In this document: positions 4,070 through 45,414 of the stretch, one piece after another
How positions within the stretch are numbered: position 1 is the stretch's first letter
How the letters are laid out: the number at the start of each line of letters is the position of its first letter
Source: a virus
Reading direction: 5' to 3' (one strand)
DNA: 64,000 nucleotides
Virus record (IMG/VR): IMGVR_UViG_3300026479_000007
Coordinates: 62,001-126,000 of that record
Position numbers and translations under genes: made by a program
The notes under the pieces: generated by a model
Database searches by the model: none
Told to the model about the DNA's origin: nothing
The model's input: the letters and a program-made list of their open reading frames with translations, nothing else

Positions 4070-4123
4070 TTGGAATATTTATAATTGTTATTTTAAGGAA
4101 TTTAATAAAAAAGTCAATGAATT

Positions 4124-5530: not shown

Positions 5531-5590
5531 ATTTTATAGTTTATTTTTATTTTAAATTATATATATTAATTAGTATTTATTATATATAAC

Positions 5591-5597
5591 ATAAATA
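5591..5597 (-). promoter_or_regulatory. Candidate late-promoter element (ACTATTTAT, minus strand)
   Basis: On the minus strand this reads CACTATTTATG, the same form as the gp25 copy. It lies about 60 nt upstream of the minus-strand start at 5530. Confidence 0.35.
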
Positions 5598-5633
5598 GTG
5601 CATTAAAAAAGTCTTTAATTTTTTTGACTTTAC

Positions 5634-5640
5634 TATTTAT
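5634..5640 (+). promoter_or_regulatory. Candidate late-promoter element (ACTATTTAT) before gp25
   Basis: TATTTAT preceded by AC and followed by AATA, ending 14 nt before the gp25 start codon. It belongs to a family of similar elements before virion genes across the window. Confidence 0.4.
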
Positions 5641-5654
5641 AATAAAAAAACATA

Positions 5655-6041
5655 ATGGCTAATAGTATAAATATTAAATTTCCTTTTAAAGAAACAACAA
5701 CAGGTGGTATATTTGATACTAACCAAACAACTGAACAAGCTTTAAAGGCTGATTTAATTTCTTTATTGACAACAAGAAGAGGGCAAAGACCTATGAGAAG
5801 TACTCTTTTTTCACCAATATACGACTATATTATGGAGCCATTGGATGATTTTACAAAATCTGAACTACAAAAAGATATTGAAGAAAAGGTTGCTGAATTT
5901 ATTCCTCAAATAACAATAGTAAAAATTTTTTTCACAGAACAAGAAGAAACTAATTTATTAACAATAGAAATAGTATTTAAAATAAACACTTTCTTTGGAG
6001 TTACAGATTCTGTAACACTAAATATACCAAGAGAATTTTAA
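5655..6041 (+). CDS. gp25: Baseplate wedge protein, gp25/GPW family
   Basis: 128 residues, the usual length for the GPW/gp25 family. The family core is clear: IKFPF near the N-terminus, the helix EQALKADLISLLTTRRGQRP with the conserved R-G-x-R-P turn, and a final beta segment with TLNIPREF. In T4, gp25 forms part of the wedge core with gp6 and gp53, and in contractile systems it helps trigger sheath assembly. It is followed after 18 nt by the gp6-like gene, the same pairing as in many contractile phages. The start ATG lies 14 nt after a TATTTAT element; no Shine-Dalgarno is visible. Confidence 0.92.
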   Translation: MANSINIKFPFKETTTGGIFDTNQTTEQALKADLISLLTTRRGQRPMRSTLFSPIYDYIMEPLDDFTKSELQKDIEEKVAEFIPQITIVKIFFTEQEETNLLTIEIVFKINTFFGVTDSVTLNIPREF

Positions 6042-6059
6042 TAATTAAACAAACACAAT

Positions 6060-9555: not shown

Positions 9556-12147
9556 TTATTGATTATCTTCTTTTCTAAAATTAAAAACATCTTTTAATCC
9601 ACTAGAATTTAACCTTTCTTTATATTCTGTTGCTTTACTAACTTTTTCAGAAGCGTTTTGAATTTTCTTTAAAAAGTCAAATTGTTCTTTTTGTCTCTTT
9701 ATTAATTTTAAGATTTTCTCTTTTGCTTTTTCTTGTATTAATTTTGCTATTTTTGATTTAGCTTCAGAAACTAACCTTCTTATAAGCATAGATAAAACGA
9801 TAGAATATAAAGAATTTATTATACTCTTAGAAAATGCTGATTTTTGCTCAAAATCTTTTTCATTTCCACTTTTACAAGATTCACAAATTTCACAAGGACT
9901 TGATAAAATTTCTTTAGAGCTCAAAGGTTCTTGTCCAGTTTTTATTAACTCAGCATTTATAACACCAAATACTTGATTCATTTCAGGACTAACAGATAAA
10001 GAAACACTTATATATTGCATTATTTTTTCAATAACTATTTGAAAAAAACTTTGTTTTACTTGTGTAGAATCTTCTTCATTTCTTTGTCTTTGCATTTCTG
10101 ATTTTACATAATTATTTAATAATGTAAAAGATTCTGCTGGATTAGGTCTTTGGCTTTCAGATATTCCTAAGTCTTCAGAAGAAACTAAATCAAATTCATC
10201 TTCAAAATTTTCTGGTAAGCTTATTTCAACTTTTTGACAAGAAACTATTAATTCAATTTTTCCAGCCTCTAACTGTCTTTTTAGTTCAACTCTATTATAT
10301 TCTAATTCTTGTTCAGTTACTCCTGGATTATTAGAAATAGAATACATCTTTTCTCCACAAGCAGCAGCATTTAATAGTTTTTCTTGAACTTCTGAGTCTG
10401 GGTTTATTTTTTCTTTAGGTCCAAAAATCATTTTTATAATTTGAGCAACTAAAGCTCTTTTACCCATTGATAATGAAGGTCTTAAGTATTTTGTTAGATA
10501 TTGTTCATTTGTTAATCCTATATCATCTGGATTTACTCTAAATGAAAATGTGTTTATTATTTGATTCCTAAAATCCTCAGTTACAGAACTTAAGCTTGTT
10601 AATAATAAATTTTCATCAATTTGAATATCTGATTCTATAACTCCAACAGTTTGATTTGATGTGTTATTTGAATCAGTTGAGTCTTGATTTGGTATAAACG
10701 TAGAAGAACCAACATTTGATTGGGTAGGGACAAATTCAGCACCTTGAGGTGGATAAGTTGTTCCACTTATAACTCTTTCTTCATTTAAGCTATCATCAAA
10801 TCTTAGGAAGACTTCAATGTAGCTTTCTGATAAATCTGCATTATCAACATATTTATAACTTGGTAAACTAGCATTATTTGTAACTAAAAATACATAATTC
10901 GAATCAGTATTTCCAGGATATGTAACTCCATCTACAACTAATTCATTAGAGTCAGAAAAGTCACTTACCCAATCATAATATTTATCATCTAAAGATTGAT
11001 AATCAACAAATTCATCACCATCTATTGGTCCAATTGTTATAGATGCAGTTGGGAGACCTTTATTATTAGTAACAGTTAAAATTAAACTAGTAATATCTTC
11101 AACTCTTGTTGCATTTGCAGGTATTTTTTGTTTTTTAAATTCATAAGTTAAAGGTTCTGCAACTAAACTGTAACTATATACTAAATTTTCAGTATTTCCA
11201 CTTGAATTAGAATTAGTAACACCAGTACTATAAGATTGACTATTTCCAGAAAAACTACTATCAATTTCTAATTCAAAATTTAATATATTTTCTATATTTT
11301 TATTTTTATCAATTTCTATGTTATTTAAAGCTTCTTTATATCCATCTAAAGACGCTTTAAGAACATAGGTTCCTGATTTCAATTTCTTTATTAAATAATT
11401 ACCACTTTCATCAGAAAGTAATTCCAAAGGCGGATTAGCTCCAACAATTTCTATTTTTGCACCATTTAAGGATTTGTCTTCACTTAAAGATTTAATATTC
11501 CCAGACACATCTCCATACAGATAAGGAACTTCTGCTTTTAAAGTTCCAGTAGGTGGATAGTTAATGTCAAACTCTTCTGAATAGTAACCAACATTATTAA
11601 ATTCTGTTTTTACTTTTTTTATAAATTCATCAACTGTAATCTGAGTATCTGCTGAAAATTTTGTTACTTTTACAGTAGGAAGTCTATCTGGTATATTACT
11701 ATAAACATTTGCATACCTAGCTCCATTTACTTGAAATTCAGAAAATTCATACTCTACAACATTAGTCAATTCTTGTGTAGAAGAATTTGAATCAGATGAA
11801 TCTGAAACTGTAGTATCTTTTACTTGTGGAGCTAAATTAATTTGTCTTACATCTAAAGATTTAGCTAAACCTTTTATAATTATGTCTTCTAATAAAAATT
11901 CATTTTCACCATAAGTAGCAAAAACTTTCCTTAAAAACTGATTCATAACAGCATCAGTAGTACCTGGCCCAGATATTGCATCTAAAAATTTAGTTGATAA
12001 ATCAAAAGTGCTTATTTGTTGACTTTTCTTTAAATTTGGAAATTGAATTTTAGGTGCTGTAACATAAGTGTTAAGCGAATTTAATTTAGAAAGTGCTTTA
12101 TTTTGACTTTCTGTTAATAGTGAATTTAAAGGTTTTTTAAATGGCAT
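9556..12147 (-). CDS. Large putative baseplate/tail protein with carboxypeptidase-regulatory-like insert
   Basis: 863 residues. The N-terminal region is helical and describes no known family. Residues about 205-290 form a carboxypeptidase-regulatory-like beta-sandwich: GDVSGNIKSLSEDKSLNGAK, then SDESGNYLIKKLKSGTYVLK and SLDGYKEA. A Ser/Asn/Thr-rich linker follows. The C-terminal 200 residues contain a Cys cluster (CEICESCKSG), which could bind a metal, and a long basic amphipathic helix (KSKIAKLIQEKAKEKILKLI). The mixture of helices at both ends with a beta insert suggests a connector within the baseplate. It is translated with the two genes upstream (8 nt spacing). Confidence 0.55.
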   Translation of the reverse strand: MPFKKPLNSLLTESQNKALSKLNSLNTYVTAPKIQFPNLKKSQQISTFDLSTKFLDAISGPGTTDAVMNQFLRKVFATYGENEFLLEDIIIKGLAKSLDVRQINLAPQVKDTTVSDSSDSNSSTQELTNVVEYEFSEFQVNGARYANVYSNIPDRLPTVKVTKFSADTQITVDEFIKKVKTEFNNVGYYSEEFDINYPPTGTLKAEVPYLYGDVSGNIKSLSEDKSLNGAKIEIVGANPPLELLSDESGNYLIKKLKSGTYVLKASLDGYKEALNNIEIDKNKNIENILNFELEIDSSFSGNSQSYSTGVTNSNSSGNTENLVYSYSLVAEPLTYEFKKQKIPANATRVEDITSLILTVTNNKGLPTASITIGPIDGDEFVDYQSLDDKYYDWVSDFSDSNELVVDGVTYPGNTDSNYVFLVTNNASLPSYKYVDNADLSESYIEVFLRFDDSLNEERVISGTTYPPQGAEFVPTQSNVGSSTFIPNQDSTDSNNTSNQTVGVIESDIQIDENLLLTSLSSVTEDFRNQIINTFSFRVNPDDIGLTNEQYLTKYLRPSLSMGKRALVAQIIKMIFGPKEKINPDSEVQEKLLNAAACGEKMYSISNNPGVTEQELEYNRVELKRQLEAGKIELIVSCQKVEISLPENFEDEFDLVSSEDLGISESQRPNPAESFTLLNNYVKSEMQRQRNEEDSTQVKQSFFQIVIEKIMQYISVSLSVSPEMNQVFGVINAELIKTGQEPLSSKEILSSPCEICESCKSGNEKDFEQKSAFSKSIINSLYSIVLSMLIRRLVSEAKSKIAKLIQEKAKEKILKLIKRQKEQFDFLKKIQNASEKVSKATEYKERLNSSGLKDVFNFRKEDNQ

Positions 12148-13568: not shown

Positions 13569-14519
13569 TTAGGCGGTTGTTTCTTCGTATTCTATTTCTC
13601 TATCTTCAGACATAAAGTATTCACTTTTAGCTTGTTCCATCCAAAAGCCAATCTCTTTAGCAGTCAAACCTCCATTTTCCTTAGATATTGTAGTTATATT
13701 TGAAGGGATTTTTGAAGAGAATCTATCAAAAGTTGAGCTATTAACATCCATTCTCATTTGATAACCATATCTTGGAATAGTATAAGTTTTTAAATCTTCA
13801 TAAATCATTCTTAAGAAAAATTCATATGAAGAAGCGATACTCATATTTTCCTTAAAAGGATAATATTTACCTTCTCTTTCTTCACTGTATTCTTTAATAT
13901 CTTCAACTTTCAACATACAACCTGTTGGTGATAAGCAATTCCAAGACATTAATAATTGTAAGTCAGCTTGCCCAGAAACTTCAACTTTACCTTCAAGCCA
14001 AGTAGCTTCATTTAAATGTCCAGTCATATTTCCAGCTGAAACTTGTCTTACAATTGGGAAAAATACAGATACGTCTTCTTTTTCAGTAGAGAATCTATCA
14101 AAATTATAGACCCAACTTTCTTCAACAACATCATCTTTATCAATTACAGAAAACCACTTATATCCATTTTCGTTAGCAATATTAAAAGCATCGTTAAAAA
14201 CAGAGTTAAAACTAGTTGATGTAGTTGTCTGAATAGCAAAGTTCAATGTTTTTTCTGAAGTTAAAGTTTTTGTTAAAGGATTTCCTTTATCATCTGTTTC
14301 AAAAGCTCTTTTATAAGGTTTGTTAGCTATTTCAGAAATTTTTTCTAAAGTATCTTTTTCTAAATTTTCAGAAACTAAAATCAAAACATCCGTAGGATTT
14401 GTTTGTTCTGCTAAATTATATAAAGATTCACTTAAAGTTTCTTCTTCAATTTTATTAATTGGTAATACAACTAATAAATTTTTATTATTTAAGGTTTCTA
14501 AATTCTTCAATTCTTTCAT
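13569..14519 (-). CDS. Glycosyltransferase, GT2-like
   Basis: 316 residues, GT-A type. The N-terminus has an alternating beta/alpha start (NKNLLVVLPINKIEEE, then VLILVSEN). The central SVIDKDDVVEESWVYNFDRF carries the acidic D-x-D-D cluster that binds the sugar-nucleotide metal. Further along lie RQVSAGNMTGHLNEATW and a region resembling the acceptor-side GT2 segment (SPTGCMLKVED). Its 5' end overlaps the GT4 gene upstream by 35 nt, so the two are translated together and probably act on one glycan. It is last in the operon, followed by a strong terminator. Confidence 0.65.
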   Translation of the reverse strand: MKELKNLETLNNKNLLVVLPINKIEEETLSESLYNLAEQTNPTDVLILVSENLEKDTLEKISEIANKPYKRAFETDDKGNPLTKTLTSEKTLNFAIQTTTSTSFNSVFNDAFNIANENGYKWFSVIDKDDVVEESWVYNFDRFSTEKEDVSVFFPIVRQVSAGNMTGHLNEATWLEGKVEVSGQADLQLLMSWNCLSPTGCMLKVEDIKEYSEEREGKYYPFKENMSIASSYEFFLRMIYEDLKTYTIPRYGYQMRMDVNSSTFDRFSSKIPSNITTISKENGGLTAKEIGFWMEQAKSEYFMSEDREIEYEETTA

Positions 14520-15693
14520 TTTTAATAGTGTTATAAATATTTAATACAGATTCTACTTCTTTTTCTCTTGTATACTCTGAAATTGTTCTTTCGTATTCTT
14601 TTTGAATTTCTTCTGAATCTAAAACTCCAGAAAAATATCTATCCAAAGCCATACCAATCAATTCAGCCAATTGGAAAACATCTCCGTTAACAGCCCAAAA
14701 TCCATTTTTTTCATTCACATATTCTTTACTTCCAAAAGGAGTCCAACCAACAACGTGAGTACCGCTAGCCATAGCTTCTAAAGGTAATGTACCAAATCCA
14801 GCAACTTCATCAGTATATAATGCGATAGCAGAATTTTTTAACTGTTGTGCAAATTGTTCTTTAGTTAAACCTTGAAGAGGAGCGAAACGAATCCATCTAT
14901 AATGTGGATAAAATTCATAAAATGTTCTAATAACAGTATTAGTTTTCATTTGAGACTCTGGCCCTCTACCAGGCATATAGGAAATCATTGGAGCTTTATC
15001 AGAAATTTTTTCTGGGACATTAAACAATTTTCTATCAATACCTTGTTTATAATTTTTAATATTTAAACCTGGCATAATAGTATTTAAATATTCTGTAATA
15101 CCATCTGAAACAGAAATTACATCTTTAATTCCAAAGTGTTGCCATTTTTGACCAACCTTCATACCAGATAAAACATAATACCAACTTTGAGCCATAACAA
15201 CTCTTCTACAAGGTAATTGAGAAGTGTTTTCCATAATATTAGGAAATCCTTCAGGTATAATTAAGATGTCTTCTGGATTCATTTTTAATGATTCTACTGT
15301 TTCAGTCGTTCCATCAGTATAAGTAAGAACTCCTTCAGCTAAACATCTAACATCAATTTCTTCTTTTAAATCACCTAACCAAGTTGGGTTAAATTTATCA
15401 AAAATAATTACTGGGTCTTTAGCACCTTTTAATCTAGCTTTTTGAGTAGCTTCTAATGATGCTTTATTATTTTGTTGTGGTTCATAAATGATTGCCACAC
15501 TTTTTCCAGCATCTTTTAATATTTTTGCGTGTTCGAATAAAACAGAGATACCTCCACTAGGAGTGTTCATAGCAGGACAGTATATATATACTGTATTTTC
15601 TTCTTTTTCTATTTTAGAAATAAGACTTGAAATTGCTTTTTCTCTTTGTTTTAACATTTCTTCTTCTGAAATTTGTTGAGAAACTGTTTCCAT
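14485..15693 (-). CDS. Glycosyltransferase, GT4-like (GT-B fold)
   Basis: 402 residues with the two-domain layout of GT4 enzymes. The N-terminal Rossmann part has YIYCPAMNTPSGGISVLFEH and VAIIYEPQQ, with the glycine-rich PSGGI loop near the start. The C-terminal donor-binding part has ISYMPGRGPESQ and the hallmark GFGTLPLEAMASGTHVVGW, corresponding to 'E.fG..~lEAMa.G.pVv'. It transfers a sugar from a nucleotide donor, cytoplasmic by analogy. The 3' end overlaps the next glycosyltransferase by 35 nt. It is separated from the HAD-like gene upstream by a hairpin terminator, so it may have its own promoter. Confidence 0.8.
   Translation of the reverse strand: METVSQQISEEEMLKQREKAISSLISKIEKEENTVYIYCPAMNTPSGGISVLFEHAKILKDAGKSVAIIYEPQQNNKASLEATQKARLKGAKDPVIIFDKFNPTWLGDLKEEIDVRCLAEGVLTYTDGTTETVESLKMNPEDILIIPEGFPNIMENTSQLPCRRVVMAQSWYYVLSGMKVGQKWQHFGIKDVISVSDGITEYLNTIMPGLNIKNYKQGIDRKLFNVPEKISDKAPMISYMPGRGPESQMKTNTVIRTFYEFYPHYRWIRFAPLQGLTKEQFAQQLKNSAIALYTDEVAGFGTLPLEAMASGTHVVGWTPFGSKEYVNEKNGFWAVNGDVFQLAELIGMALDRYFSGVLDSEEIQKEYERTISEYTREKEVESVLNIYNTIKNERIEEFRNLK
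14533..14539 (-). promoter_or_regulatory. TATTTAT element before the GT2-like gene (inside upstream gene)
   Basis: Minus strand reads AAATATTTATAAC, 13 nt before the start at 14519. It sits inside the 3' end of the overlapping gene, so an internal promoter is possible but unproven. Confidence 0.25.
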
Positions 15694-19884: not shown

Positions 19885-20103
19885 TTATTTATTTCTTTTA
19901 ATTCCAAAGTTAGATTTATACCATAATCTCTCATGAATATAATAAAGAATCATTTTACTTATAACTTCAACACCTCCAATTGAAAAACCAATCATCCAAT
20001 TATTTGTCAAAAACCAACTAATTATTATAGTATCTATTGTTCCTAATAATCTCCAAGTTATAGTTTTGGCAATATGTCTTTTATGACTTATTTCTAGTTT
20101 CAT
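19885..20103 (-). CDS. DUF2061 small membrane protein
   Basis: 72 residues from the ATG at 20101-20103. A longer upstream frame would run far into the nucleotidyltransferase gene and is not preferred. The family signature is clear: RHIAKTITWRLLGTIDTI, IGFSIGGVEVISKMILYYIH, then ERLWYK. Two membrane segments are predicted (about 21-37 and 43-60). DUF2061 proteins are often encoded beside, or fused to, APS kinase, and here the gene overlaps by 23 nt the gene that follows cysC. This supports a job in sulfate activation or transport, but the function is unknown. Confidence 0.75.
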   Translation of the reverse strand: MKLEISHKRHIAKTITWRLLGTIDTIIISWFLTNNWMIGFSIGGVEVISKMILYYIHERLWYKSNFGIKRNK

Positions 20104-20548
20104 ATAAATAATTTTCAACATCTCCCTGGATTGATTCATCAACCATCTCTCTCCAAGAGTTATTACCTTCTTTAATTGATTCCCTAATCTTAGTGGCTGA
20201 AATAAACCCAATCTCTTCTGTTGGTCTGTATTCATTAATCTCGTATCCTACACCTCTACCATAATTAACCGATTCAATATCAGGTATAATCATTACCTTT
20301 ACATCATCACCTTTAGAATTATGATACTTTTCAATCATACTTACAGTTTGTTCTGTTGTAAAAGGATTCTTTTCATCTGGTTCAATATCTCTAACCATAA
20401 TAAGTACTGGAACACCCTCATCCAACTTTTGTTGAATTAAATTGATATGCCCATAATGGTATGGTTGATATCTACCAACGAATATCGCATATTTCTTATC
20501 TTTGTTTTTGGTGGGTTCACCTCCATGATTTTTCTTTTCCCAACTCAT
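20081..20548 (-). CDS. HxGH-type nucleotidyltransferase (adenylyl/cytidylyltransferase family)
   Basis: 155 residues. The family nucleotide-binding motif is VGRYQPYHYGHINLIQQ (24-40, with HxGH at 31-34) and the second signature is FISATKIRES (125-134). VNYGRGVGYEI lies between them. This resembles NMN/pantetheine-type adenylyltransferases in size. Its start overlaps the cysC stop by 4 nt and its end overlaps DUF2061, so it belongs to the sulfate-activation unit. It may make an adenylylated intermediate for that pathway, or act separately in NAD or nucleotide-sugar metabolism; the sequence alone does not settle which. It is too short to be a standard ATP sulfurylase. Confidence 0.7.
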   Translation of the reverse strand: MSWEKKNHGGEPTKNKDKKYAIFVGRYQPYHYGHINLIQQKLDEGVPVLIMVRDIEPDEKNPFTTEQTVSMIEKYHNSKGDDVKVMIIPDIESVNYGRGVGYEINEYRPTEEIGFISATKIRESIKEGNNSWREMVDESIQGDVENYLYETRNKS

Positions 20549-21120
20549 AAATTTTTATAAATAAATTCTACACTATCTTCTATACTCATCTTGTCTGTTC
20601 TAATAAACATATTAGGGTTTTTAGGTTCTTCATAAGGTGAATCTATACCTGTAAACATAGGTATTTCTCCAGCTCTAGCCTTTTTATACAACCCTTTTGG
20701 GTCACGCTCTTCACAAGTTTCTAATGGTGTTTTAATATAAATTTCAACAAAATTATCTTTGCCTATTATCTCTTTAGCCATTTGTCTTTCATTTTCAAAT
20801 GGCGAAATGAAAGCTGTGATAACTATAGCACCTAAATCAATCATTAAATTTGCAACTTCAGCTATTCTTCTAATATTTTCCTTTCTATCATCATCAGAAA
20901 AACTCAAATCTTTATTAAGACCCATTCTAACATTGTCACCATCTAAAATATAAGCTAATTTACCTTCATTATGCAATTTAGATGCTAACTCATTTGCTAT
21001 AGTTGATTTACCAGAACCAGATAATCCAGTTAACCAAATAACTTGAGGTTTTTGTTTTAATATTTCTATTCTTTCTTTTTGAGTTATTAAAAAATTTTGA
21101 GAAATTATATTTTTATTCAT
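20545..21120 (-). CDS. cysC: Adenylylsulfate (APS) kinase
   Basis: 191 residues, a complete CysC. It phosphorylates APS to PAPS, the universal sulfuryl donor. Visible motifs are the Walker A GLSGSGKST (32-40), DGDNVRMGLNKDLSFSDDDR (60-79), ISPFENERQMA (106-116), RDPKGLYKKARAGEI (129-143) and FTGIDSPYEEP (147-157), all intact. The gene lies between an FkbM methyltransferase and the nucleotidyltransferase, three genes downstream of a sulfotransferase that would use PAPS. APS itself must come from the host or from the neighbouring nucleotidyltransferase. The function is secure; its use for glycan sulfation is inference from context. Confidence 0.95.
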   Translation of the reverse strand: MNKNIISQNFLITQKERIEILKQKPQVIWLTGLSGSGKSTIANELASKLHNEGKLAYILDGDNVRMGLNKDLSFSDDDRKENIRRIAEVANLMIDLGAIVITAFISPFENERQMAKEIIGKDNFVEIYIKTPLETCEERDPKGLYKKARAGEIPMFTGIDSPYEEPKNPNMFIRTDKMSIEDSVEFIYKNL

Positions 21121-21129
21121 TGTTTTATA

Positions 21130-21753
21130 TTATTTTTTTTCATATATATCATCAACATTTATTTTTTTTATCAACTGATATCCATTATTTGATAATATTT
21201 TTTGAATTAAAGTATTGTTATAATTATTTTCAACAATAATTAATTTTATTTTCACTTTGTCGAAATCTATACTTTTTATTATATCAATTTCACCACCTTC
21301 AGTATCTATAGTGCAAAAATCAATCTCATTAATATTATGCTTATTTAATAAATTATTTAACAATTCTGTTTTAACTTTTATAATTTCAATTCCTTTATTT
21401 TTAGGATTTTTTATTTCTTGCTCAATTCTTTTTTTATGTTTTTCATCATAAGAGTCAACTATTCCACTTAAACCTTTGCCCCACCCTGATATATCCATAA
21501 AATCAACTTCATCAACCTTATTAGATAGTGCGTAATTTTCACATATACATGTTCTATTATTCTCAAGTAATTTAAAGCGTTTAGGGCTGGGTTCTATACA
21601 CATCCCATACCATCCAATATCTTCAAAAAATTTTGTATTACTTTTATCTATTCCATCATCTGCACCTATCTCTAAGAATACACCATTTTTTTTATTTTTA
21701 AAATATTTTTCATATAACCATTTATCTTGACCATATTGACTATAAAACTTCAT
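21130..21753 (-). CDS. FkbM-family SAM-dependent methyltransferase
   Basis: 207 residues. The SAM-binding motif is GVFLEIGADDGIDKSNT (24-40). MCIEPSPKRFKLLENN follows, then the FkbM hallmark DFCTIDTEGGEIDIIKSID near residues 146-164. FkbM enzymes O-methylate sugars or polyketides and are common in surface-polysaccharide clusters. The gene is in line with the GT10-like and CysC genes (14 and 9 nt spacing), so methylation of the same glycan is the simplest reading. Confidence 0.85.
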   Translation of the reverse strand: MKFYSQYGQDKWLYEKYFKNKKNGVFLEIGADDGIDKSNTKFFEDIGWYGMCIEPSPKRFKLLENNRTCICENYALSNKVDEVDFMDISGWGKGLSGIVDSYDEKHKKRIEQEIKNPKNKGIEIIKVKTELLNNLLNKHNINEIDFCTIDTEGGEIDIIKSIDFDKVKIKLIIVENNYNNTLIQKILSNNGYQLIKKINVDDIYEKK

Positions 21754-21767
21754 ATTATTATTATTAT

Positions 21768-22616
21768 TTAAATTATTATTTTTTTATTTTCAATTTCTTT
21801 TATTTTTTTATATATTACTTCCCATATATTATATTCATTGAGTATTAACATCCTTGCTTCTTTTAGTGAATTTTTTTCAGTTTTTGTTAAAGGTTTTTTA
21901 ATAATTTCATTTATATCATCTAAAGGATTACTACTATTAATATCAATTAATCTATAACTATCTTTTGGAAAGTAATTTTCTATATTTGGACACCCCCAAT
22001 AAATTGGCATACACCAAGACAAATAAGCATCAGCTAACTTTTCAGTCCAATAATTTTTTTGTTGTGAATTTTCCATAACAATAGTATATTCATAATCAAT
22101 TAAACCTTCAAATTTACAATTTCCATCATAATTTAAAATGCCCTTATAATTATCGCCATAATATTTTTCATTGTGACCCTTTCCATATAATTCAATATTA
22201 TTTTTTGTTTTAAATAAATTTTTAATATATTCATTTCTGTGAGTATGTTTTGAAGAGGCAACACAACTAATCTTTTTACTTTTATTTGGATATTTTAATT
22301 CTGTTAATTGTTTATAAGATTTATTCAACCAATAAGTGACACCAGTATTTTTTAAATTATAATCTACTATATGTTTATATTTTAAATTTCTATAAGGTCT
22401 TATATAATTTGGTTCTCTTTTTATAAAAATTGTTTTTTCAATTGGAGTATTTGTTGCAAAAACTTCTAAGACAATAAAATAATCAGCTTCATTCATATTT
22501 ATTGTTCCAACCAAATCTTTCCAAACACCATCACTATTTGGAGTTTGTTTGGAATATCTTTCTAAAAGTTTTCGATTGTCTTCATTCCAATTGTTTATAA
22601 AAAATATTTTTTTCAT
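21768..22616 (-). CDS. GT10-like (alpha-1,3-fucosyltransferase family) glycosyltransferase
   Basis: 282 residues. The C-terminal donor-binding block is characteristic of GT10: YEYTIVMENSQQKNYWTEKL, then ADAYLSWCMPIYWGCPNIEN and YFPKDSYRLIDI. These match 'ykf.iafENs....yvTEKl..a...g.vPiy.G...i..~fp..sfi.i'. The N-terminal acceptor domain is divergent. GT10 enzymes usually transfer fucose from GDP-fucose; no GDP-fucose synthesis genes are in the window, so the donor would come from the host. The start codon overlaps the sulfotransferase stop (TAATG), showing translational coupling with it. Confidence 0.75.
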   Translation of the reverse strand: MKKIFFINNWNEDNRKLLERYSKQTPNSDGVWKDLVGTINMNEADYFIVLEVFATNTPIEKTIFIKREPNYIRPYRNLKYKHIVDYNLKNTGVTYWLNKSYKQLTELKYPNKSKKISCVASSKHTHRNEYIKNLFKTKNNIELYGKGHNEKYYGDNYKGILNYDGNCKFEGLIDYEYTIVMENSQQKNYWTEKLADAYLSWCMPIYWGCPNIENYFPKDSYRLIDINSSNPLDDINEIIKKPLTKTEKNSLKEARMLILNEYNIWEVIYKKIKEIENKKIII

Positions 22617-23215
22617 TAAAATTTAAATTTAAATAATTCTATATCTTTAGCATATATCTCAGAAACAATATCTTTAGTTTCATTATCATAATAATCTTTA
22701 TATTTTTTATAACTTTTTTTACTTACATTTTTAACACTTAAGTTAGGAATTATTTTTTTAAATTTTAAATCTAACTCAATATCTTCTAATTTAAAAACGT
22801 AATCCAATAACATCAAACCTTCATTATTATAAATATACTTATTTTGAGATTCCCAACCTTGATGTTTTAAAAAGTTATTATCTTCTTTAAAAGCTTGTAA
22901 AGTTTCTTTAAAGTTAAGTTTTATTAAATTTTTATAATCTGGGTGAGCTCCATATATAGAATTACCACTAACTGAATGCCAATGACTTTCAGGCATTCTA
23001 GCGTATTCATAATTAGACACTACTCTATCCCAAGGATTTCTAATAACACAAAACTTTATATAATTTTCCCATTGATTTGGAAAGTTACTTTTATAAAAAG
23101 AAGGCAAATGATGACCTTTAAAAGAAAAATTCATCCCTTCTGAGTCAGTTATTGATGTCCCAGCATTCTTTGGGATATGTATAAAAATTAATTTATTTTT
23201 ATGTGATATTGGCAT
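22616..23215 (-). CDS. PAPS-dependent sulfotransferase (Sulfotransfer_2-like)
   Basis: 199 residues. The 5'-phosphosulfate loop is FIHIPKNAGTSI (11-22) and the 3'-phosphate site is CVIRNPWDRVVSNYEYA (56-72), both intact. The C-terminus has the usual DIVSEIYAKDIELFKF helix. This family sulfates carbohydrate hydroxyls using PAPS; here the PAPS-forming CysC is three genes downstream. It is embedded among glycosyltransferases, coupled to the GT10-like gene by a shared TAATG and only 2 nt from the GT25 gene. The acceptor is unknown. An alternative is a protein-tyrosine target, but the setting favours a glycan. Confidence 0.85.
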   Translation of the reverse strand: MPISHKNKLIFIHIPKNAGTSITDSEGMNFSFKGHHLPSFYKSNFPNQWENYIKFCVIRNPWDRVVSNYEYARMPESHWHSVSGNSIYGAHPDYKNLIKLNFKETLQAFKEDNNFLKHQGWESQNKYIYNNEGLMLLDYVFKLEDIELDLKFKKIIPNLSVKNVSKKSYKKYKDYYDNETKDIVSEIYAKDIELFKFKF

Positions 23216-23217: not shown

Positions 23218-23808
23218 TTATCTTAAATGTTTATTATTAGTTATAATATTTTCTATATCTGAAAATCCTGGCTTTTGCCATGCTATTGTTGGATTGCATA
23301 TAAAAGAATTAATGTTAGGTAATAATTCAGATAATAACACATCAACTTTAAATTCTCTTTCTTTAAATTTGTTTAACATTTTTTCAACAATCTCTTTTCT
23401 AATAATAAAAGCGTGTGTACAATATACTTTTTTAGCTAAATATAAAAAATCATTATATTTAATTTTATCTCCAACATTCCAACCACCTAAAAATAATAAA
23501 TCCCAATTTTCTGGTAAAGTTTTAGTTATTTTTTCTAAATCATTAATAAAATTTTCACCAACTTCAACATCATCTTCAAAAATTATAAAAAAATCTTCAT
23601 CTAACTCTTTTACTTTTTCCAACAATCTTATATGCGAATCTCTACATCCTCTCCAACCTCTTTCAAACATTGGTTTATTTGAGAAACTTTCTTTGCCATC
23701 AGTTGCTGAAAACCTTTCCCATTTTAAAGGTAATTTTATTTCAGATATTCTATCTACTCTTCTATCTAAGTTTATAACAAAAGTTTTTGTTTTTTCTAAA
23801 TTTATCAT
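23218..23808 (-). CDS. GT25-like glycosyltransferase
   Basis: 196 residues. It has the GT25 family start FVINLDRRVDRI (10-21), the helix WRGCRDSHIRLLEKVKELD (52-70) and the acidic motif FIIFEDDVEV (74-83). It is shorter than full-length LPS GT25 enzymes but includes the catalytic region (FLGGWNVGDK, THAFIIRK). It sits 1 nt from the next glycosyltransferase and 2 nt from the sulfotransferase gene. Beta-galactosyltransferase activity is common in the family; the specificity here is unknown. Confidence 0.8.
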   Translation of the reverse strand: MINLEKTKTFVINLDRRVDRISEIKLPLKWERFSATDGKESFSNKPMFERGWRGCRDSHIRLLEKVKELDEDFFIIFEDDVEVGENFINDLEKITKTLPENWDLLFLGGWNVGDKIKYNDFLYLAKKVYCTHAFIIRKEIVEKMLNKFKEREFKVDVLLSELLPNINSFICNPTIAWQKPGFSDIENIITNNKHLR

Positions 23809-23809: not shown

Positions 23810-24478
23810 TTATTTTTCCCATTTTTTAATTATTTCACAATGTATAGGTGTTTCTTTAGAGTGTAAATCATCATATATTGTATATTTATTTTTCATTTTT
23901 GGATTGTATATAAAAAACTCTTTAGCTTTTCTTGCAATACTTATCATTTTTACATTTTGTTTTTTGCAAATATCCGATAAATATATATCTGCTTTATTTG
24001 GTGTTTTAAAATCTTTTAATTTTAAATCTAAAACTTCTAAATCTATTCTACAACAACCAGTACCTATAACATCTACTTCAGTATCTTTGTCTAATGCAGA
24101 ATTTGAATGCAAAACTATTCTGTCTTTATAATAATTTTTACAAGGATATTTTATTATTGAAGCATGAATACCAATTACTGGGTTGTTGTTTTTTAATAAA
24201 TGCTCAATATAATTTTTTTTATATATCAAATCATCATCACACGCAAAATAAAAATGACCTTTATATTCATCTACTTTGTAAAATTTAGCAGCATCTCCTA
24301 AGGAGTTATCCAATAAATAACTTTCTATTTTTTCTTTTTTTAAGAAACTAGGCACTTCTTTATAATTGTTTAATCCTACTATAATTTTATCTACTTGATT
24401 ATATAGAGAATTTACAGTATCTCTAAGGCATTCTTCTCTTTCAGGCAAACTTGCAATTCCTACTACTTTTAATTTCAT
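23810..24478 (-). CDS. GT2-like glycosyltransferase
   Basis: 222 residues, GT-A type. It begins with a beta strand and SLPEREECLRDTVNSLYNQ, typical of family-2 enzymes that open with 'tyP.R...l...i.sl..q'. FYFACDDDLIYKKNYIEHLL (77-96) carries the DxD cluster. A short histidine/tyrosine acceptor region follows. Its start overlaps the upstream GT2 stop by 4 nt, consistent with tight coupling in the operon. Confidence 0.7.
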   Translation of the reverse strand: MKLKVVGIASLPEREECLRDTVNSLYNQVDKIIVGLNNYKEVPSFLKKEKIESYLLDNSLGDAAKFYKVDEYKGHFYFACDDDLIYKKNYIEHLLKNNNPVIGIHASIIKYPCKNYYKDRIVLHSNSALDKDTEVDVIGTGCCRIDLEVLDLKLKDFKTPNKADIYLSDICKKQNVKMISIARKAKEFFIYNPKMKNKYTIYDDLHSKETPIHCEIIKKWEK

Positions 24479-25188
24479 ATTATTTCAAAATTTTCATTCA
24501 TTTCTGGTTCAATATATTCAAAATCTTTAGCTAATTTTTTAGTGATACTTTTTCTATATTCACTACCATAACCAGTTTCTCTTTTTTGAGTTAAGGATTC
24601 AGAATGAATTCTTCTTAAATAAAGAGGTTTTCTGATTATATATCTCTTAAATTTTTTAGTTCTCATTTCAAAATCACTATCAGCACCCACTTTCCAAGCT
24701 TTATAACCACCTATTTCTTTCCATACGCTCCATTTGACAGCAGCTATACCTTCCATTTCTTTTGGACTTAAACTATTCTTACCATCTTCAGTAAAATTTT
24801 GACAATGATACAAAACTAAGTCATTTTCTTTTAAGTGAGGCTCTACAGTTTCTAACAAATTATTTATTTGAATATCATCAGCACCAACAGTTATAGTTTT
24901 GTCAAAATTTACATTATTAAGTAAAGAGTTTAAAGTTACAAAAGTACCTTTATTCTCTTTGAAATTTATAACTTTTAAGTTTTTGTATTTATTTTTTATT
25001 TTCTTTACTTCATTTAATGTATCTAAACAACCATCTATACCTAATAAAATTTCATAATTATCTTTTTTTTGAAATAATGTTTGATTTTGAATTGAATCTA
25101 AACAACTTTCAATATATTTTTGTGCCTGATAAGCTGGTACTATTACACTCCAACCTTCTTGAATATTTCTTTCTGAAAATTTTTTCAT
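24475..25188 (-). CDS. GT2-family glycosyltransferase
   Basis: 237 residues with the canonical GT2 pattern: SVIVPAYQAQKYIESCLDSI (14-33), GIDGCLDT (50-57), NFKENKGTFVTLNSLL (75-90) and the DxD-type TVGADDIQI (100-108). A conserved W-K-E-x-G-G-Y segment (VWKEIGGYKAWKVGADSDFE) follows, as in chondroitin-synthase-like GT2 enzymes. It overlaps neighbours on both sides by 4 nt. Probably adds one residue to the surface glycan built by this operon. Confidence 0.85.
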   Translation of the reverse strand: MKKFSERNIQEGWSVIVPAYQAQKYIESCLDSIQNQTLFQKKDNYEILLGIDGCLDTLNEVKKIKNKYKNLKVINFKENKGTFVTLNSLLNNVNFDKTITVGADDIQINNLLETVEPHLKENDLVLYHCQNFTEDGKNSLSPKEMEGIAAVKWSVWKEIGGYKAWKVGADSDFEMRTKKFKRYIIRKPLYLRRIHSESLTQKRETGYGSEYRKSITKKLAKDFEYIEPEMNENFEII

Positions 25189-25478
25189 TTCTTTTCGATT
25201 AAAAGTTCATTTTTGTTTAAAAAAGGAAATTCTTTCAACATTTCCTCTACATTTTTTTTAAGATTTTCTATTTTTTTAATATATTTTTCTCTTTCTTCTT
25301 CTGGTAATACAATAGGATTTAAACAGTCAATATATGTTTCTTTGTTTCTAATAGGAATAAAAATACTATGATATTCTTCATTATATGTAAAAGTTTGTTT
25401 TATATTATTAATATATTCTGAAACTTCTACATTATCTAAATTTCCTATATTTATATAGTGAACTATTATTGGTTTCAT
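25185..25478 (-). CDS. Small protein within the glycan operon
   Basis: 97 residues, family not recognised. It begins with KPIIVHYINIGNLDNVEVSE, a beta/alpha start resembling a minimal Rossmann-like unit, and ends in a charged coiled segment (YIKKIENLKKNVEEMLKEF). It is locked into the operon by a 4-nt overlap with the GT2 gene downstream and 4-nt spacing upstream. It may be an accessory subunit for the adjacent transferases. Confidence 0.6.
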   Translation of the reverse strand: MKPIIVHYINIGNLDNVEVSEYINNIKQTFTYNEEYHSIFIPIRNKETYIDCLNPIVLPEEEREKYIKKIENLKKNVEEMLKEFPFLNKNELLIEKK

Positions 25479-25482: not shown

Positions 25483-26265
25483 TTAAATTAATTCAAATTT
25501 GTTTAAAGGAAAATCTAACTCTTGATAACATCCTTCAATTTGATTAAAATCCATATTTTTATAGTCAACTTCTAAGTCATCCAATATAAAAGAAGTGTTT
25601 AATTTTTCAATACTTTCAGTTTCTTTTGCTAAACCACTAACTAAAACACTCTCTTTGAAAGAAGACATATTTTTTCTGGGGAAATTATCAAATATTTGTA
25701 ATCCGCTCTCATAATCTTCCAAAGAACTAAAAGAAACTTTTTTTGTCAACTTCTTTATTTCTTTTGTTCTAAAGATATGTCCATTTAAAGATAAAGGATA
25801 ACCAAAATCCAAATAATGAACTTGCCAATCCCACATAATGTACTTATCATCTTCATAGTTAGGTCTTATAATATTATCAGCATCCATCGTATGACACTTT
25901 ATAGTATTTTTACCTAACCTCATAGAGAAACAAAATGTATCTTTATCATCTCTCAATTGAGTAACCAAATCTTCTTCCTTAACTTTACTAAAAAGAATAT
26001 TGTCATCTGTAAAGAAACAAGTATAATCACTTTTTGACTTTTCTAATAAGTCTAAAATTTTTTCTTTAAAATCTTCTACCCCTTCTACCCAATTAATTTT
26101 AGGATATTTCTTGATTAACTTTTCATAACCTAAATTATAACTATAGTTTGTAGAAGTATATACAACACTCAAATCAAAAATATCATTTGAATTTACATCA
26201 ATAGATGATAATAAAAGGTTTAATTGTACTGGATTGTTTTGTGAAATTATTATACCATTAATCAT
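25483..26265 (-). CDS. Divergent GT2-like glycosyltransferase
   Basis: 260 residues. NGIIISQNNPVQLNLLLSSI, VVYTSTNYSYNLGYEKLI and DYTCFFTDDNILFSKV follow the GT-A order (strand, donor loop, TDD metal motif near residue 100). The fit to GT2 is weaker than for its neighbours. A LNGHIFRTKEI segment lies where the acceptor loop is expected. It overlaps the first GT2 gene by 8 nt. Most likely a transferase of the same pathway. Confidence 0.6.
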   Translation of the reverse strand: MINGIIISQNNPVQLNLLLSSIDVNSNDIFDLSVVYTSTNYSYNLGYEKLIKKYPKINWVEGVEDFKEKILDLLEKSKSDYTCFFTDDNILFSKVKEEDLVTQLRDDKDTFCFSMRLGKNTIKCHTMDADNIIRPNYEDDKYIMWDWQVHYLDFGYPLSLNGHIFRTKEIKKLTKKVSFSSLEDYESGLQIFDNFPRKNMSSFKESVLVSGLAKETESIEKLNTSFILDDLEVDYKNMDFNQIEGCYQELDFPLNKFELI

Positions 26266-27127
26266 TTTCTTCTAATTTTTCTGTTTTATAACTTTCTAAT
26301 TTTTCGAAACTTTTCTTTCTATTAACATCAATATAGGTAGTTAACTGCAATTCTCTTTGTAGTCTATTATCGGATATTGGATTATCTACATTGTGTATAT
26401 ACATTTCTTCTTTATTAAAGAACACATGCTCCTTACCAGCCATTTCAAACATGGGTAAAAACATACAAACATCATATTTAACTTTATACCAATTGCCTGA
26501 TTTATCTTTCATACATTCAAAATTTTCATCTTGTTCTGCAATTTTACTATAAAGACCAGCTTTAAAAGTTCTTATGTGAGGTATTATAAAAGGTATTTTT
26601 CTTAAATCCTCAAATTCTTCTTTTGTATACTCTTTATGATTATATGTTTGACTATTGTTAGAACTTTTTGAATTCCCATACATTAACCAACACTCTTCAT
26701 TTTTGTTATAAAAATCATTAATTTGAGATAAAACTCTCTTATTAACAAGCCAATCATCTCCATTTACAATTACAACAATATCTTCTGAGTCTGTAGCAAA
26801 CCTCATTATTCCGTTATGCAAATTAGGAAGAGCAGTAATTCTTTCCCCAGACCTCCAAGCTAAAATATTGCTACAATTAGTTTTGTCTAATAAGTGATGT
26901 TTACTTTCAACTATAGGTTCTCCATTATCATCCATCAAAAGATTTCCTTCACTATCACCTTTATATTTTACAGCAGGTATTTTAGAAAAAGAATCATCTG
27001 TAGAACAATCATCTATAAAAAGAATTTCATAGTTATCATAATCTTGAGTTAGCAAAGAATTTATACACCTATCTAGAAACTTTCCTGGATTATAAAATGG
27101 GACTATGACTTTAATTTTATTTTTCAT
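26258..27127 (-). CDS. GT2-family glycosyltransferase (first gene of operon)
   Basis: 289 residues. Clear GT2: KVIVPFYNPGKFLDRCINSL (6-25), EILFIDDCSTDDSF (34-47), then IVVIVNGDDWLVNKRVLSQI with the D-D metal motif near residue 116. It carries an insertion with KYKGDSEGNLLMDDNGEP between the donor motifs. It is first in the run of overlapping minus-strand genes, so its upstream region (27128-27259) should hold the operon promoter. No clear Bacteroidota -33/-7 pair was found there. Sugar specificity unknown. Confidence 0.85.
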   Translation of the reverse strand: MKNKIKVIVPFYNPGKFLDRCINSLLTQDYDNYEILFIDDCSTDDSFSKIPAVKYKGDSEGNLLMDDNGEPIVESKHHLLDKTNCSNILAWRSGERITALPNLHNGIMRFATDSEDIVVIVNGDDWLVNKRVLSQINDFYNKNEECWLMYGNSKSSNNSQTYNHKEYTKEEFEDLRKIPFIIPHIRTFKAGLYSKIAEQDENFECMKDKSGNWYKVKYDVCMFLPMFEMAGKEHVFFNKEEMYIHNVDNPISDNRLQRELQLTTYIDVNRKKSFEKLESYKTEKLEEND

Positions 27128-27674: not shown

Positions 27675-28244
27675 ATGAAAATTACAAAATCAGAATTAAC
27701 ACAAATTATTAAAGAGGAAGCTTTAAAATTCAAAAAAAAGCTACAATTAGAATCTAAACTTGCTGAAATTGAAGCTCAACTTGCTGAAGTTGAAGCTGGT
27801 GATATGCATGAATTACCTGATGGGACAAAAAAGTATAAGCCAGAATTTGAAGAATTAAGCAAAGATGGAGGTTTCCCAGCTTTAAAAGAAGAAGAAGAAG
27901 AATTTGGAGAAGAAATTTCTGAAGAAGAAGATATGATGGAAATGATGTCAGAAAAAATGGAAGATGAAGAAGAGAAAACTTTAGAAGAAATGTTAGCTGA
28001 AATCATGTCTGAAGAAGATGAAGATTTAGAAGAATGTGGAACTATGGAAGAAGAAGAAGTAGTTTCTGAAAAGGAAGAAGTTTGCGAAGAAGAAGAAGAA
28101 GTTTCTGAAAAAGAAGAAGTTTCTGAAGAAGAAGAAATGTGTGAAGATGAAGAAGTAGTTTCTGAATCAAAAAACAATACAGAAAATATTCTTACTGAAG
28201 AACAGTCTAGAATGAAAAAATTAGCTGGTTTAATTAAGGAATAA
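27675..28244 (+). CDS. Highly acidic prohead-core-like protein with terminal motifs
   Basis: 189 residues. The start KITKSELTQIIKEEALKFKK parallels T4 capsid-targeting peptides of internal proteins, which begin with about ten residues ending in (L/I)-x-E. The middle is almost pure Glu/Asp/Ser/Val (EEEVCEEEE-type runs), as in scaffold proteins. The C-terminus EEQSRMKKLAGLIKE shares R-M-K-x-L-A-G with the end of the scaffold at 35501. Together these point to a core or internal capsid protein processed by the gp21-type protease (inference). A strong terminator follows. Confidence 0.6.
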   Translation: MKITKSELTQIIKEEALKFKKKLQLESKLAEIEAQLAEVEAGDMHELPDGTKKYKPEFEELSKDGGFPALKEEEEEFGEEISEEEDMMEMMSEKMEDEEEKTLEEMLAEIMSEEDEDLEECGTMEEEEVVSEKEEVCEEEEEVSEKEEVSEEEEMCEDEEVVSESKNNTENILTEEQSRMKKLAGLIKE

Positions 28245-31155: not shown

Positions 31156-32388
31156 ATGTCTGATAAAATAAAAATATTATTTCAACCTTCAGATTTGGCT
31201 GGAGTTGGGCACTTTAGGTCTATTTGGCCTGCACAAGAAATTCAAAGAAAATATAAAGACTCTTTTGAAGTTAAAATTGATTTAAGTCCTAATTTTAATG
31301 ATTTAGAATCTTTAAAAAAATATGATATCATACACTTTCATAGACACTTTGGACCAATAGAAAGAATTGATGAAATTTTTGATACCTTAAAATCTGCTGG
31401 TGTAACTATGATTATGGATATTGATGATTATTGGTCTCCTCCAACTACACATCCTATGTATCATGCTGCAAAAAGTGAAAATATAGAGGAAAAAATTATT
31501 AAAACTATCAAAAAATCTGATTATGTAACAACTACAACAGATATTTTTGCTAAAGAAATAGCTAAATATAACAAAAATGTGATTGTTATGCCTAATGCTA
31601 TTGATTCAGAACATAAAATGTGGAAACAAGATGAGACAGCCGAAAAATTTGATAAACTTAGAGTTTCTTGGATTGGTGGTTCATCTCATTTAGAAGATTT
31701 GAAGTTAATGGAAACTTCTATGGCAAAATTAAATTCAGACGATTCTTTAAAAGATAAATATCAAATTATTTTATGTGGTTTTGATACTAGAGGTCACATT
31801 ACAGAAATTAATCAACAAACTGGTCAAAAAAAGACAAGAAAAATAAAACCAGAAGAAAGTGTTTGGAATCGTTTTGAAAAAATTTTTACAAGTGATTACA
31901 AAATAGTTGATGAAGATTATAGAAAGTTTTTAAGTGAATTTAAAAATGAAAAATATCCAGAAGATTATTCTAAATTGAATTATGTTAGAAGATGGACTTT
32001 GCCATTAACTCAATATGGTAAACATTATAGTTTTTGTGATGTTTGTTTAGCTCCTTTAGTTCATAATAAATTTAATGAAGTCAAATCTGAACTTAAAATA
32101 ATTGAGGCTGGAATGACAAAAAAAGTTTTAATTGCTCAAGATTTTGGGGTTTACAAAGAATTAATTGAAGATGGTGAAAATGGTTTCTTAGTTAAAGATA
32201 ATAGAAATCATAAAGATTGGTATAAAAATATCAAAAAACTTATTAACAACCCAGAAGAAGTAAAAAGAATTTCAGAAAATCTACATAATTTCGTAAAAGA
32301 AAAATATGACTTGAAAAATGTAACGAAAAGTAGAGTTGAAAGCTATTTGAAATTACACAAAGAAAAAAGTGAAGTAGCTGTAAATTAA
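31156..32388 (+). CDS. GT4-like glycosyltransferase in the structural region
   Basis: 410 residues, GT-B fold. The N-terminal domain has LFQPSDLAGVGHFRSIWPAQ and YDIIHFHRHFGPIERID, then MIMDIDDYWSPPTTHPMY. The C-terminal domain has VSWIGGSSHLEDL, KSELKIIEAGMTKKVLIAQD and GENGFLVKDN, matching the donor-site segment of GT4. It is separate from the minus-strand glycan operon and faces the opposite way, among head genes. It may modify virion proteins or act in the same pathway late in infection. Confidence 0.75.
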   Translation: MSDKIKILFQPSDLAGVGHFRSIWPAQEIQRKYKDSFEVKIDLSPNFNDLESLKKYDIIHFHRHFGPIERIDEIFDTLKSAGVTMIMDIDDYWSPPTTHPMYHAAKSENIEEKIIKTIKKSDYVTTTTDIFAKEIAKYNKNVIVMPNAIDSEHKMWKQDETAEKFDKLRVSWIGGSSHLEDLKLMETSMAKLNSDDSLKDKYQIILCGFDTRGHITEINQQTGQKKTRKIKPEESVWNRFEKIFTSDYKIVDEDYRKFLSEFKNEKYPEDYSKLNYVRRWTLPLTQYGKHYSFCDVCLAPLVHNKFNEVKSELKIIEAGMTKKVLIAQDFGVYKELIEDGENGFLVKDNRNHKDWYKNIKKLINNPEEVKRISENLHNFVKEKYDLKNVTKSRVESYLKLHKEKSEVAVN

Positions 32389-33707: not shown

Positions 33708-34025
33708 ATGGCACTAGAATTAACAAAAGAAAATTTTGAAGAGTTAGTTTTAAAATCTAATAAACCTGTTTTAGTAGATTTTTGGGCGGAATGGTGTAAT
33801 CCTTGTAAAATGATAGGGCCAGTAATAGATGAGATTCATAATGAATTATCAGACAAAGCAATAATCAGTAAAGTAAATGTAGATTTATATTCTGATATAG
33901 CTAGAGATTATGGAGTTAGAAATATACCTACAATGCTTTTTTTTAAAGATGGAGAAGTCTATGATAAATTAGTAGGAATTAAAAGTAAAGAAGAAATAAA
34001 ATCCAAAATTGAACCTAAACTATAA
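33708..34025 (+). CDS. trxA: Thioredoxin
   Basis: 105 residues, the normal thioredoxin length. The active site is FWAEWCNPCKMIGPVIDEI with WCNPCK at 29-34 instead of the common WCGPCK. The cis-proline loop VRNIPTMLFFKDGEV and the closing Gly are present. It acts as a cytoplasmic disulfide reductase; in phages it can support ribonucleotide reductase or a DNA polymerase. The Gly-to-Asn change between the cysteines may shift the redox potential. It ends at a strong terminator. Confidence 0.92.
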   Translation: MALELTKENFEELVLKSNKPVLVDFWAEWCNPCKMIGPVIDEIHNELSDKAIISKVNVDLYSDIARDYGVRNIPTMLFFKDGEVYDKLVGIKSKEEIKSKIEPKL

Positions 34026-45258: not shown

Positions 45259-45259
45259 G

Positions 45260-45332: not shown

Positions 45333-45337
45333 TTTTG

Positions 45338-45411: not shown

Positions 45412-45414
45412 TGG

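Follow-up and report, generated by a model that had tools for sequence, protein, structure and literature searches.

A minus-strand operon in the viral record IMGVR_UViG_3300026479_000007 joins an enzyme predicted to make 3'-phosphoadenosine 5'-phosphosulfate (PAPS) to one predicted to use it, and probably constitutes a phage sulfation unit in which a viral PAPS module feeds glycan sulfation. The operon lies in the window analyzed here, the whole 64,000-nucleotide stretch covering positions 62,001 to 126,000 of the record. It is a tightly spaced gene series running from 27127 down to 19885, with a GT2 glycosyltransferase first and the small membrane protein DUF2061 last. Its central pair consists of CysC, an adenosine 5'-phosphosulfate (APS) kinase, and a PAPS-type sulfotransferase. 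The initial annotation of this DNA had proposed a PAPS-making and PAPS-using pair inside a phage glycosyltransferase operon, a claim that is well supported by Pfam, PHROGs and a predicted fold. The extent it gave, 20545-23215, contains the pair; however, the operon runs on through a HIGH-family nucleotidyltransferase (NTase) and DUF2061, the most regular companions of CysC, which it had missed.

In the proposed pathway, CysC would phosphorylate APS to PAPS, and the PF03567-type sulfotransferase would take the sulfuryl group of PAPS and attach it to a sugar. The neighboring GT2, GT25 and GT10 enzymes would help to assemble this acceptor sugar, which the FkbM enzyme may methylate. On the donor side, DUF2061 would serve sulfate activation as a partner protein in the membrane, and NTase would most likely supply APS by converting ATP and sulfate to APS and pyrophosphate, making the virus, as we propose, independent of host ATP sulfurylase. 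The purpose may be an altered phage or host surface.

The predicted PAPS-making and PAPS-using pair

CysC (20545..21120, 191 amino acids) scores 231.5 bits against PF01583, where the curated cut-off is 21.1 (E 5e-69). As the initial annotation had claimed, every catalytic motif is in place in both the sequence and the alignment: Walker A GLSGSGKS, DGDN, the RDPKGLYKKARAG lid and FTGIDSPYE. The closest solved chain, 6b8v_A, is an adenylylsulfate kinase (E 1e-54). PAPS is the product of the APS kinase family. The kinase encoded in the window is a canonical CysC, for which PAPS formation is predicted from its family.

The sulfotransferase (22616..23215, 199 amino acids) scores 38.4 bits against PF03567 over profile positions 5-252 of 252 (E 2e-9; curated cut-off 22) and is matched nearly full length by phrog_3347, annotated as 'Galactose-3-O-sulfotransferase', at E 2e-14. 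Both PAPS loops claimed for it earlier can be read in the protein: IPKNAGTS corresponds to the 5'-phosphosulfate-binding pattern PKxxGTS, and IRNPWDRVVSNY to the 3'-phosphate-binding pattern RxP...S (RNPWDRVVSNY). R59 and S67 are among five invariant columns across 41 viral sequences, with a spacing that presumably fits the Arg/Ser pair holding the 3'-phosphate of PAPS.

An AlphaFold2 model built with these 41 sequences reaches a mean predicted local distance difference test score (pLDDT) of 93.6. When Foldseek's candidates were aligned with VIA-align, all 50 listed rows were sulfotransferases, headed by a heparan sulfate 2-O-sulfotransferase with 3'-phosphoadenosine 5'-phosphate (PAP) bound (Z 9.3, root-mean-square deviation 3.7, 174 residues); because Z values of 7 to 8 are frequent even for unmatched models, the weight rests on the uniform list and the sequence profiles. 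This structure-based check agrees with the earlier assignment, and the placement of the protein among PAPS enzymes is well supported by profiles and a confident predicted fold.

Viral relatives of the window sulfotransferase are numerous, with 386 in one scan, and viral sulfotransferases have already been noted in print (PMC8290583, PMC10829341, available text). Phage cysC is known as well, with 62 genes in the available text of one survey (PMC10914622), and the earlier description of the pairing as unusual needs qualifying on both counts. Tandem arrays also occur: in L020 (18626-22782; LR756508, a 484-kb uncultured huge phage), three tandem sulfotransferase-like open reading frames (ORFs) are flanked by GT25-like and GT10-like ORFs, and L170 has three consecutive sulfotransferase-like ORFs at 4438-6365 (two identified by eye), followed some 4 kb later by a kinase-NTase fusion at 10094-10930.

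Recurrence of the pairing in viruses

Viral loci were gathered with the CysC profile (39) and the NTase profile (23, of which 11 lie on contigs outside the CysC set), giving 50 records. PF13469 exceeds its cut-off in 10 of these and PF03567 in 14, for a union of 23/50 that includes near-copies, since records were not de-replicated. Among random viral contigs each family occurs in 1/50, in different records (union 2/50); this control leaves out the 8 shortest of 58 contigs and totals 2.6 Mb against 4.6 Mb for the kinase/NTase records. Split by size, sulfotransferase records among selected versus random contigs number 3/13 versus 1/21 below 30 kb, 12/23 versus 1/22 at 30-100 kb and 8/14 versus 0/7 above 100 kb.

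The two genes also lie close together. Of 14 clusters that carry a sulfotransferase, 8 have it no more than 3 kb from the kinase, where 1.5 would be expected at random (P ~4e-6), with clusters and distances set by hand and the 3-kb limit picked after seeing the data; for L049 the far distance was entered as 14 kb where coordinates give about 24 kb, which leaves the count unaffected. These eight clusters are the window, L016-L018, L034, L035-L038, L039/L041/L042, L051, L055 and L062/L066, with a borderline sulfotransferase in L035-L038 (19.5-21.8 bits alone and 22.6-24.1 with its neighbors, against a cut-off of 22). The survey of related viruses that had been suggested as a check thus places the pairing in eight hand-clustered lineages and not in one genome.

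Starting from the sulfotransferase gives a similar picture: at least one of kinase, NTase and DUF2061 lies in the flanks of 17 of 77 sulfotransferase loci, some at a distance and some as one gene only, and none of the three occurs in 58 random viral loci, a weaker control in that it covers 0.48 Mb against 1.40 Mb. This reverse test added two close arrangements in which kinase and sulfotransferase are immediate neighbors. L135-L138 hold sulfotransferase, kinase, NTase and DUF2061 inside 2.3 kb, and L171 encodes a DUF2061-CysC fusion with a PF03567 gene directly after it. In some viral records (L052, L057 and others) CysC is present, and NTase, DUF2061 and sulfotransferase were not found. A PAPS-reductase/CysD domain exceeds its cut-off in 2 of the 50 kinase/NTase records, one of them (G029) being a CysD beside CysNC, and Sat-type ATP sulfurylase occurs in 0/50. 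In these 50 records viral cysC accompanies sulfotransferases far more often than reductive assimilation, and the kinase-sulfotransferase pairing in phage is confirmed as real and recurrent beyond chance.

Kinase forms

Three kinase forms pair with NTase in viruses: canonical CysC and two forms for which we coined the labels KinB and KinC. KinB, found in L034-L042 and L135-L138, lacks the CysC lid; where the profile was run, its PF01583 matches have E values of 1e-17 to 4e-19. KinC also lacks the lid and is fused to NTase in L044, L170 and Stenotrophomonas phage DLP_6; the NTase-fused kinase frames of L157, L186 and L202 resemble it by profile and are unaligned. In the substrate-side region, the alignment shows a (D/N)(G/A)Dxx R stretch, and the arginine after it, in all three forms. 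The sulfotransferases beside CysC (L016) and KinB (L034) are 75% identical to each other, suggesting one common donor.

A HAD-hydrolase-like domain accompanies some of these modules. It is fused behind CysC in L015 (9995-10960; PF13419 E 5e-5, barely over the cut-off) and, by eye, in L048 (9944-10903), and it forms a separate small ORF near NTase in L135 (11050-11391) and L171 (18438-18758). It could be a candidate for removing the by-product PAP.

DUF2061

DUF2061 (19885..20103) scores 76.5 bits against PF09834, above the curated cut-off of 23.1 (E 2e-21), and on sequence its start is best set at 20103, within the end of the NTase gene. DUF2061 was matched in 13 plasmid records, and its bacterial setting was examined in 7 of these. 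On two Mesorhizobium plasmids, DUF2061 lies between a sulfotransferase and cysD-cysN, beside nod genes, and the CysN of the first plasmid carries a CysC domain. Two Microvirga plasmids encode DUF2061 as the C-terminal domain of CysN, after CysD. CysC and DUF2061 share one frame on a Gemmatirosa plasmid and in viruses L051 and L171. These arrangements are good evidence that at least part of the DUF2061 family serves sulfate activation or use. A DUF2061 domain within CysNC of S. meliloti and Thiodictyon, hinted at by long tblastn coverage, was rejected, as Pfam finds none there.

The nucleotidyltransferase

NTase (20081..20548, 155 amino acids), whose gene start overlaps the end of the CysC gene, is the candidate APS-forming enzyme. 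It matches PF01467 at E 4e-8 and contains HxGH; its HIGH_NTase1 match falls under the cut-off. It has no match to PF01747, the Sat type of ATP sulfurylase, and its own viral record has none. The identical window region, with identical proteins, occurs on a 232,514-base contig (G001), and PF01507 (CysD) is absent from this linear and perhaps incomplete record. NTase is not filed as a Sat-type ATP sulfurylase but may act like one. The substrate of APS kinase is the product of a nucleotidyltransferase.

The association of NTase with APS kinases is close. Searching by NTase alone gave 23 viral loci (about nine lineages by eye), and in 22 of them an APS-kinase-family gene is adjacent or fused, the sole exception, L043, being a 4.2-kb piece with NTase at one end; 20 of the 23 also have DUF2061. 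Across 37 NTase-bearing viral records from all routes, a set that includes loci picked via CysC or sulfotransferase, kinase is found in 36 and DUF2061 in 30 with their own profiles. NTase is fused to APS kinase in L016-L018, L035-L038 and L046-L047. Identity to the window protein is higher for NTase than for CysC in L009 (84 vs 70%) and L010-L015 (77-79 vs 68%), and lower in L005 (77 vs 86%). In L006, CysC (2699-3298) ends in the final residues of its relatives' NTase and is followed by DUF2061 (3276-3488), which looks like in-frame loss of the NTase gene.

Bacterial homologues of NTase amounted to one locus in the one genome-contig scan. A 1.1-Mb gammaproteobacterial metagenome-assembled genome (MAG) holds a relative of 78% identity, which by eye lies beside a sugar epimerase and metH. 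Within the phylum of this MAG, 19 of 398 genomes had an NTase match; the matches in G101 and G472 alone cover most of the model, the remainder being shorter and in frames of 343-417 amino acids. In G472 a kinase-NTase fusion adjoins genes for an AMP-binding enzyme and an ABC exporter, and no sulfotransferase was seen by eye in 20 kb, a stretch on which no sulfotransferase profile was run.

A plasmid of Microvirga lotononidis (L234:35-5207) carries a kinase-NTase frame beside cysD and a CysN-DUF2061 fusion whose CysN has no CysC domain, with a sulfotransferase-like fragment upstream that falls under the cut-offs. The kinase half matches PF01583 at E 2e-14; the NTase half has lost its HxGH and ISAT motifs, and its PF01467 match is gone. 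Decay of the NTase half beside CysDN would be expected if NTase and CysDN share a job. This is one suggestive case that could reflect simple decay, and no kinase-NTase fusion was found in 10 kb around the other Microvirga locus. We tentatively propose that NTase represents a new and minimal kind of ATP sulfurylase, distinct from both Sat and CysDN, which with kinase and DUF2061 would form a compact viral PAPS synthase feeding phage sulfotransferases; our confidence in this falls somewhat short of even.

Operon and genome context

Pfam assigns the genes around the pair to the families that had been named for them, GT10, FkbM, GT25 and GT2. The GT10 (fucosyltransferase-like) gene (21768..22616) scores 48.9 bits against PF00852 over profile positions 3-113 of 182 (E 8e-13; curated cut-off 23.9), and its start overlaps the sulfotransferase stop in a common TAATG read in the sequence, again as first described. 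The FkbM-type methyltransferase (21130..21753; PF05050 E 3e-20) separates GT10 from CysC, and a GT25-type glycosyltransferase (23218..23808; PF01755 E 5e-14, phrog_2835 E 2e-15) precedes the sulfotransferase. Two GT2 glycosyltransferases lie further upstream, at 24475..25188 (PF00535 E 8e-14) and, as the first gene of the series, at 26258..27127 (PF00535 E 1.2e-15, in the N-terminal part). The remaining genes of the series, all on the minus strand, are a 222-amino-acid ORF (23810..24478) with no Pfam match at E 0.01 and no PHROG at E 0.001, a 97-amino-acid ORF (25185..25478) unassigned to a family, with Pfam matches all under the curated cut-offs, and a 260-amino-acid ORF (25483..26265), likewise unassigned and with no Pfam match at E 0.01.

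The parent IMG/VR virus record comprises 138,334 bases. In the window, phrog_138 (E 4e-70) identifies a major head protein and phrog_23 (E 6e-79) a tail sheath, which indicates a contractile-tailed phage. A 189-amino-acid ORF with runs of glutamate (27675-28244) separates the operon from divergent plus-strand genes. Further glycosyltransferase genes lie outside the operon at 13569-15693 and 31156-32388, where the minus strand carries GT-A-like and GT-B-like genes and the plus strand a further GT-B. Genes for tRNA-Gln, tRNA-Asp and tRNA-Glu are clustered at 45259-45486.

Alternative explanations

Several observations weigh against the proposed sulfation unit. Compared with solved structures by sequence, the sulfotransferase gives 0 matches with phmmer and 0 with its 41-row profile, and Foldseek alone is weak, with a best E of 0.011 to a heparan sulfate 6-O-sulfotransferase. 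Neither sulfotransferase family exceeds its cut-off in 27 of the 50 kinase/NTase records, many of which are fragments. No sulfur genes are annotated near DUF2061 on the Bradyrhizobium and Haloterrigena plasmids (2 of the 7 opened) or near the only match in the phage collection, MW202753. Viruses L006-L008 keep CysC and DUF2061 and lack NTase. For NTase itself, the structural model (mean pLDDT 61) is too poor to decide its substrate; the closest fold to this model is an archaeal nicotinamide mononucleotide (NMN) adenylyltransferase (Foldseek E 1.5e-6, template modeling score 0.65), and no ATP sulfurylase is among the best 50 of its 1218 Foldseek matches (E 10 or better), which, with so poor a model, excludes nothing. 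In the 1.1-Mb gammaproteobacterial MAG that holds the NTase relative, APS kinase was not detected.

The fold likeness and the MAG locus lend themselves to a reading in which NTase is unrelated to sulfation and acts as an NMN or similar adenylyltransferase for nicotinamide adenine dinucleotide or another cofactor, travelling with CysC. Its closest solved sequences, like its closest folds, are NMN adenylyltransferases (phmmer E 1.3e-6), and the MAG relative beside the epimerase and metH fits such a role. We consider this rather unlikely, though it is an alternative to be taken seriously: the kinase association of 22 in 23 loci spans three kinase forms, NTase has its own YGRxVGY motif and a layout unlike that of the phage NMNAT-Nudix protein of L052, and the structural likeness derives from a poor model. 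PAPS might instead be made and used with a non-glycan acceptor, such as DNA bases, a nucleotide, a lipid or a virion protein. The acceptor is not readable from sulfotransferase folds, and viral sulfotransferases have been suspected of modifying nucleotides or proteins (PMC10829341, available text). This, too, is unlikely, given that the window sulfotransferase sits among glycosyltransferases, that those of L020 lie with GT25- and GT10-like genes, that a GT25-like ORF adjoins CysC in L051 and that the best structural neighbor of the sulfotransferase acts on heparan sulfate.

Two further readings concern the donor and the role of CysC. Cj1415 of Campylobacter jejuni is CysC-like. Cj1415-Cj1418 of the C. 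jejuni capsule, which make CDP-phosphoramidate 3'-phosphate, set a precedent for kinase and NTase making a 3'-phosphonucleotide donor of another group, which the 'sulfotransferases' would then transfer (PMC11800397, available text). The missing CysC lid of KinB and KinC would suit such a donor, but the window encodes a canonical CysC, the closely similar sulfotransferases of L016 and L034 seem to share donor use across kinase forms, and DUF2061 is tied to true CysD/CysN in bacteria, leaving this reading improbable. CysC could also act in the usual manner of an auxiliary metabolic gene, raising assimilatory sulfate reduction and the supply of cysteine, with the nearby sulfotransferase being incidental. 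Thioredoxin is the usual partner of PAPS reductase, and the window does contain a thioredoxin gene (33708-34025, PF00085 E 9e-33); the published reading of the 62 phage cysC genes likewise puts them in assimilatory sulfate reduction (PMC10914622, available text). Against this stand the position of CysC within a glycosyltransferase operon, the absence of a companion CysH (PAPS reductase) from G001 and the 2/50 records with a PAPS-reductase/CysD domain compared with 23/50 with a sulfotransferase, and we regard it, too, as improbable.

Relation to known systems

Like the proposed sulfation unit, the rhizobial NodPQ/NodH system for Nod-factor and surface-polysaccharide sulfation places a dedicated PAPS supply beside a sulfotransferase (PMC6192434, available text). 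Unlike it, that system is bacterial and its ATP sulfurylase is CysD/CysN, a place that NTase occupies in the virus. The sulfated capsule cluster of Vibrio sp. KMM 8419 similarly holds cysNDC and sulfotransferases amid glycosyltransferases, although it is chromosomal, comprises 80 genes, has a known product and uses a classical ATP sulfurylase (PMC11641403, available text). The window operon has the combination by which sulfated-polysaccharide clusters are recognized in that source, a PAPS-making gene and a sulfotransferase in one glycosyltransferase cluster; the Vibrio cluster has the full cysNDC, whereas only cysC is certain in the window operon. The sulfur-cycling cysC genes of the COBRA survey are also phage-encoded APS kinases, mostly in large genomes, but the survey reads them as assimilatory and the word 'sulfotransferase' is absent from its main text (PMC10914622), whereas the neighbors in the window suggest sulfation.

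Among cultured phages, Stenotrophomonas phage DLP_6, Clavibacter phage 33 and Xanthomonas phage AhaSv encode kinase-NTase fusions that share the NTase motif set, and the fused P-loop kinase matches PF01583 in DLP_6 and phage 33, the two that were run. Two genes upstream of the fusion, phage 33 (E 6e-5, over the cut-off) and AhaSv (E 9e-4, under the cut-off) have a Sulfotransfer_4-like ORF. Unlike the window enzyme, the DLP_6 kinase is a variant without the CysC lid; no sulfotransferase family was seen in the one neighbor examined beside its fusion, and DUF2061 is not annotated in the stretches opened of the three phages, on which no profile was run. Phage 33 and AhaSv belong to the Casjensviridae (L070:2621-3142 and 3587-4324; L071:2554-3132 and 3578-4324), and both have an annotated 'cysteine dioxygenase' a few kb upstream.

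Human PAPSS-type bifunctional PAPS synthases resemble the viral module in bringing a nucleotidyltransferase and APS kinase together, fused in several of the viruses. PAPSS uses a PF01747-type sulfurylase. The viral NTase, unlike PAPSS, matches PF01467 only. In human PAPS synthase 1, mutation of H425/H428 is reported to abolish the ATP-sulfurylase activity (PMC11697783). The phage unit of CysC, NTase, DUF2061 and sulfotransferase was not found in the literature searched, which left most subscription papers outside its reach, and NTase and DUF2061 were not found described as CysC partners for phages in the searchable literature.

Implications

The neighbors of viral cysC suggest sulfate decoration of surfaces more than cysteine supply. 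NTase may offer a third route to APS, and viral and bacterial evidence together speak for a part of DUF2061 in activating or using sulfate. If NTase is an ATP sulfurylase, many of the viral cysC genes now filed under 'sulfur cycling' would serve surface chemistry, and DUF2061 would find its place in a pathway. Sulfate on the glycans of phage or host could alter adsorption, superinfection or recognition.

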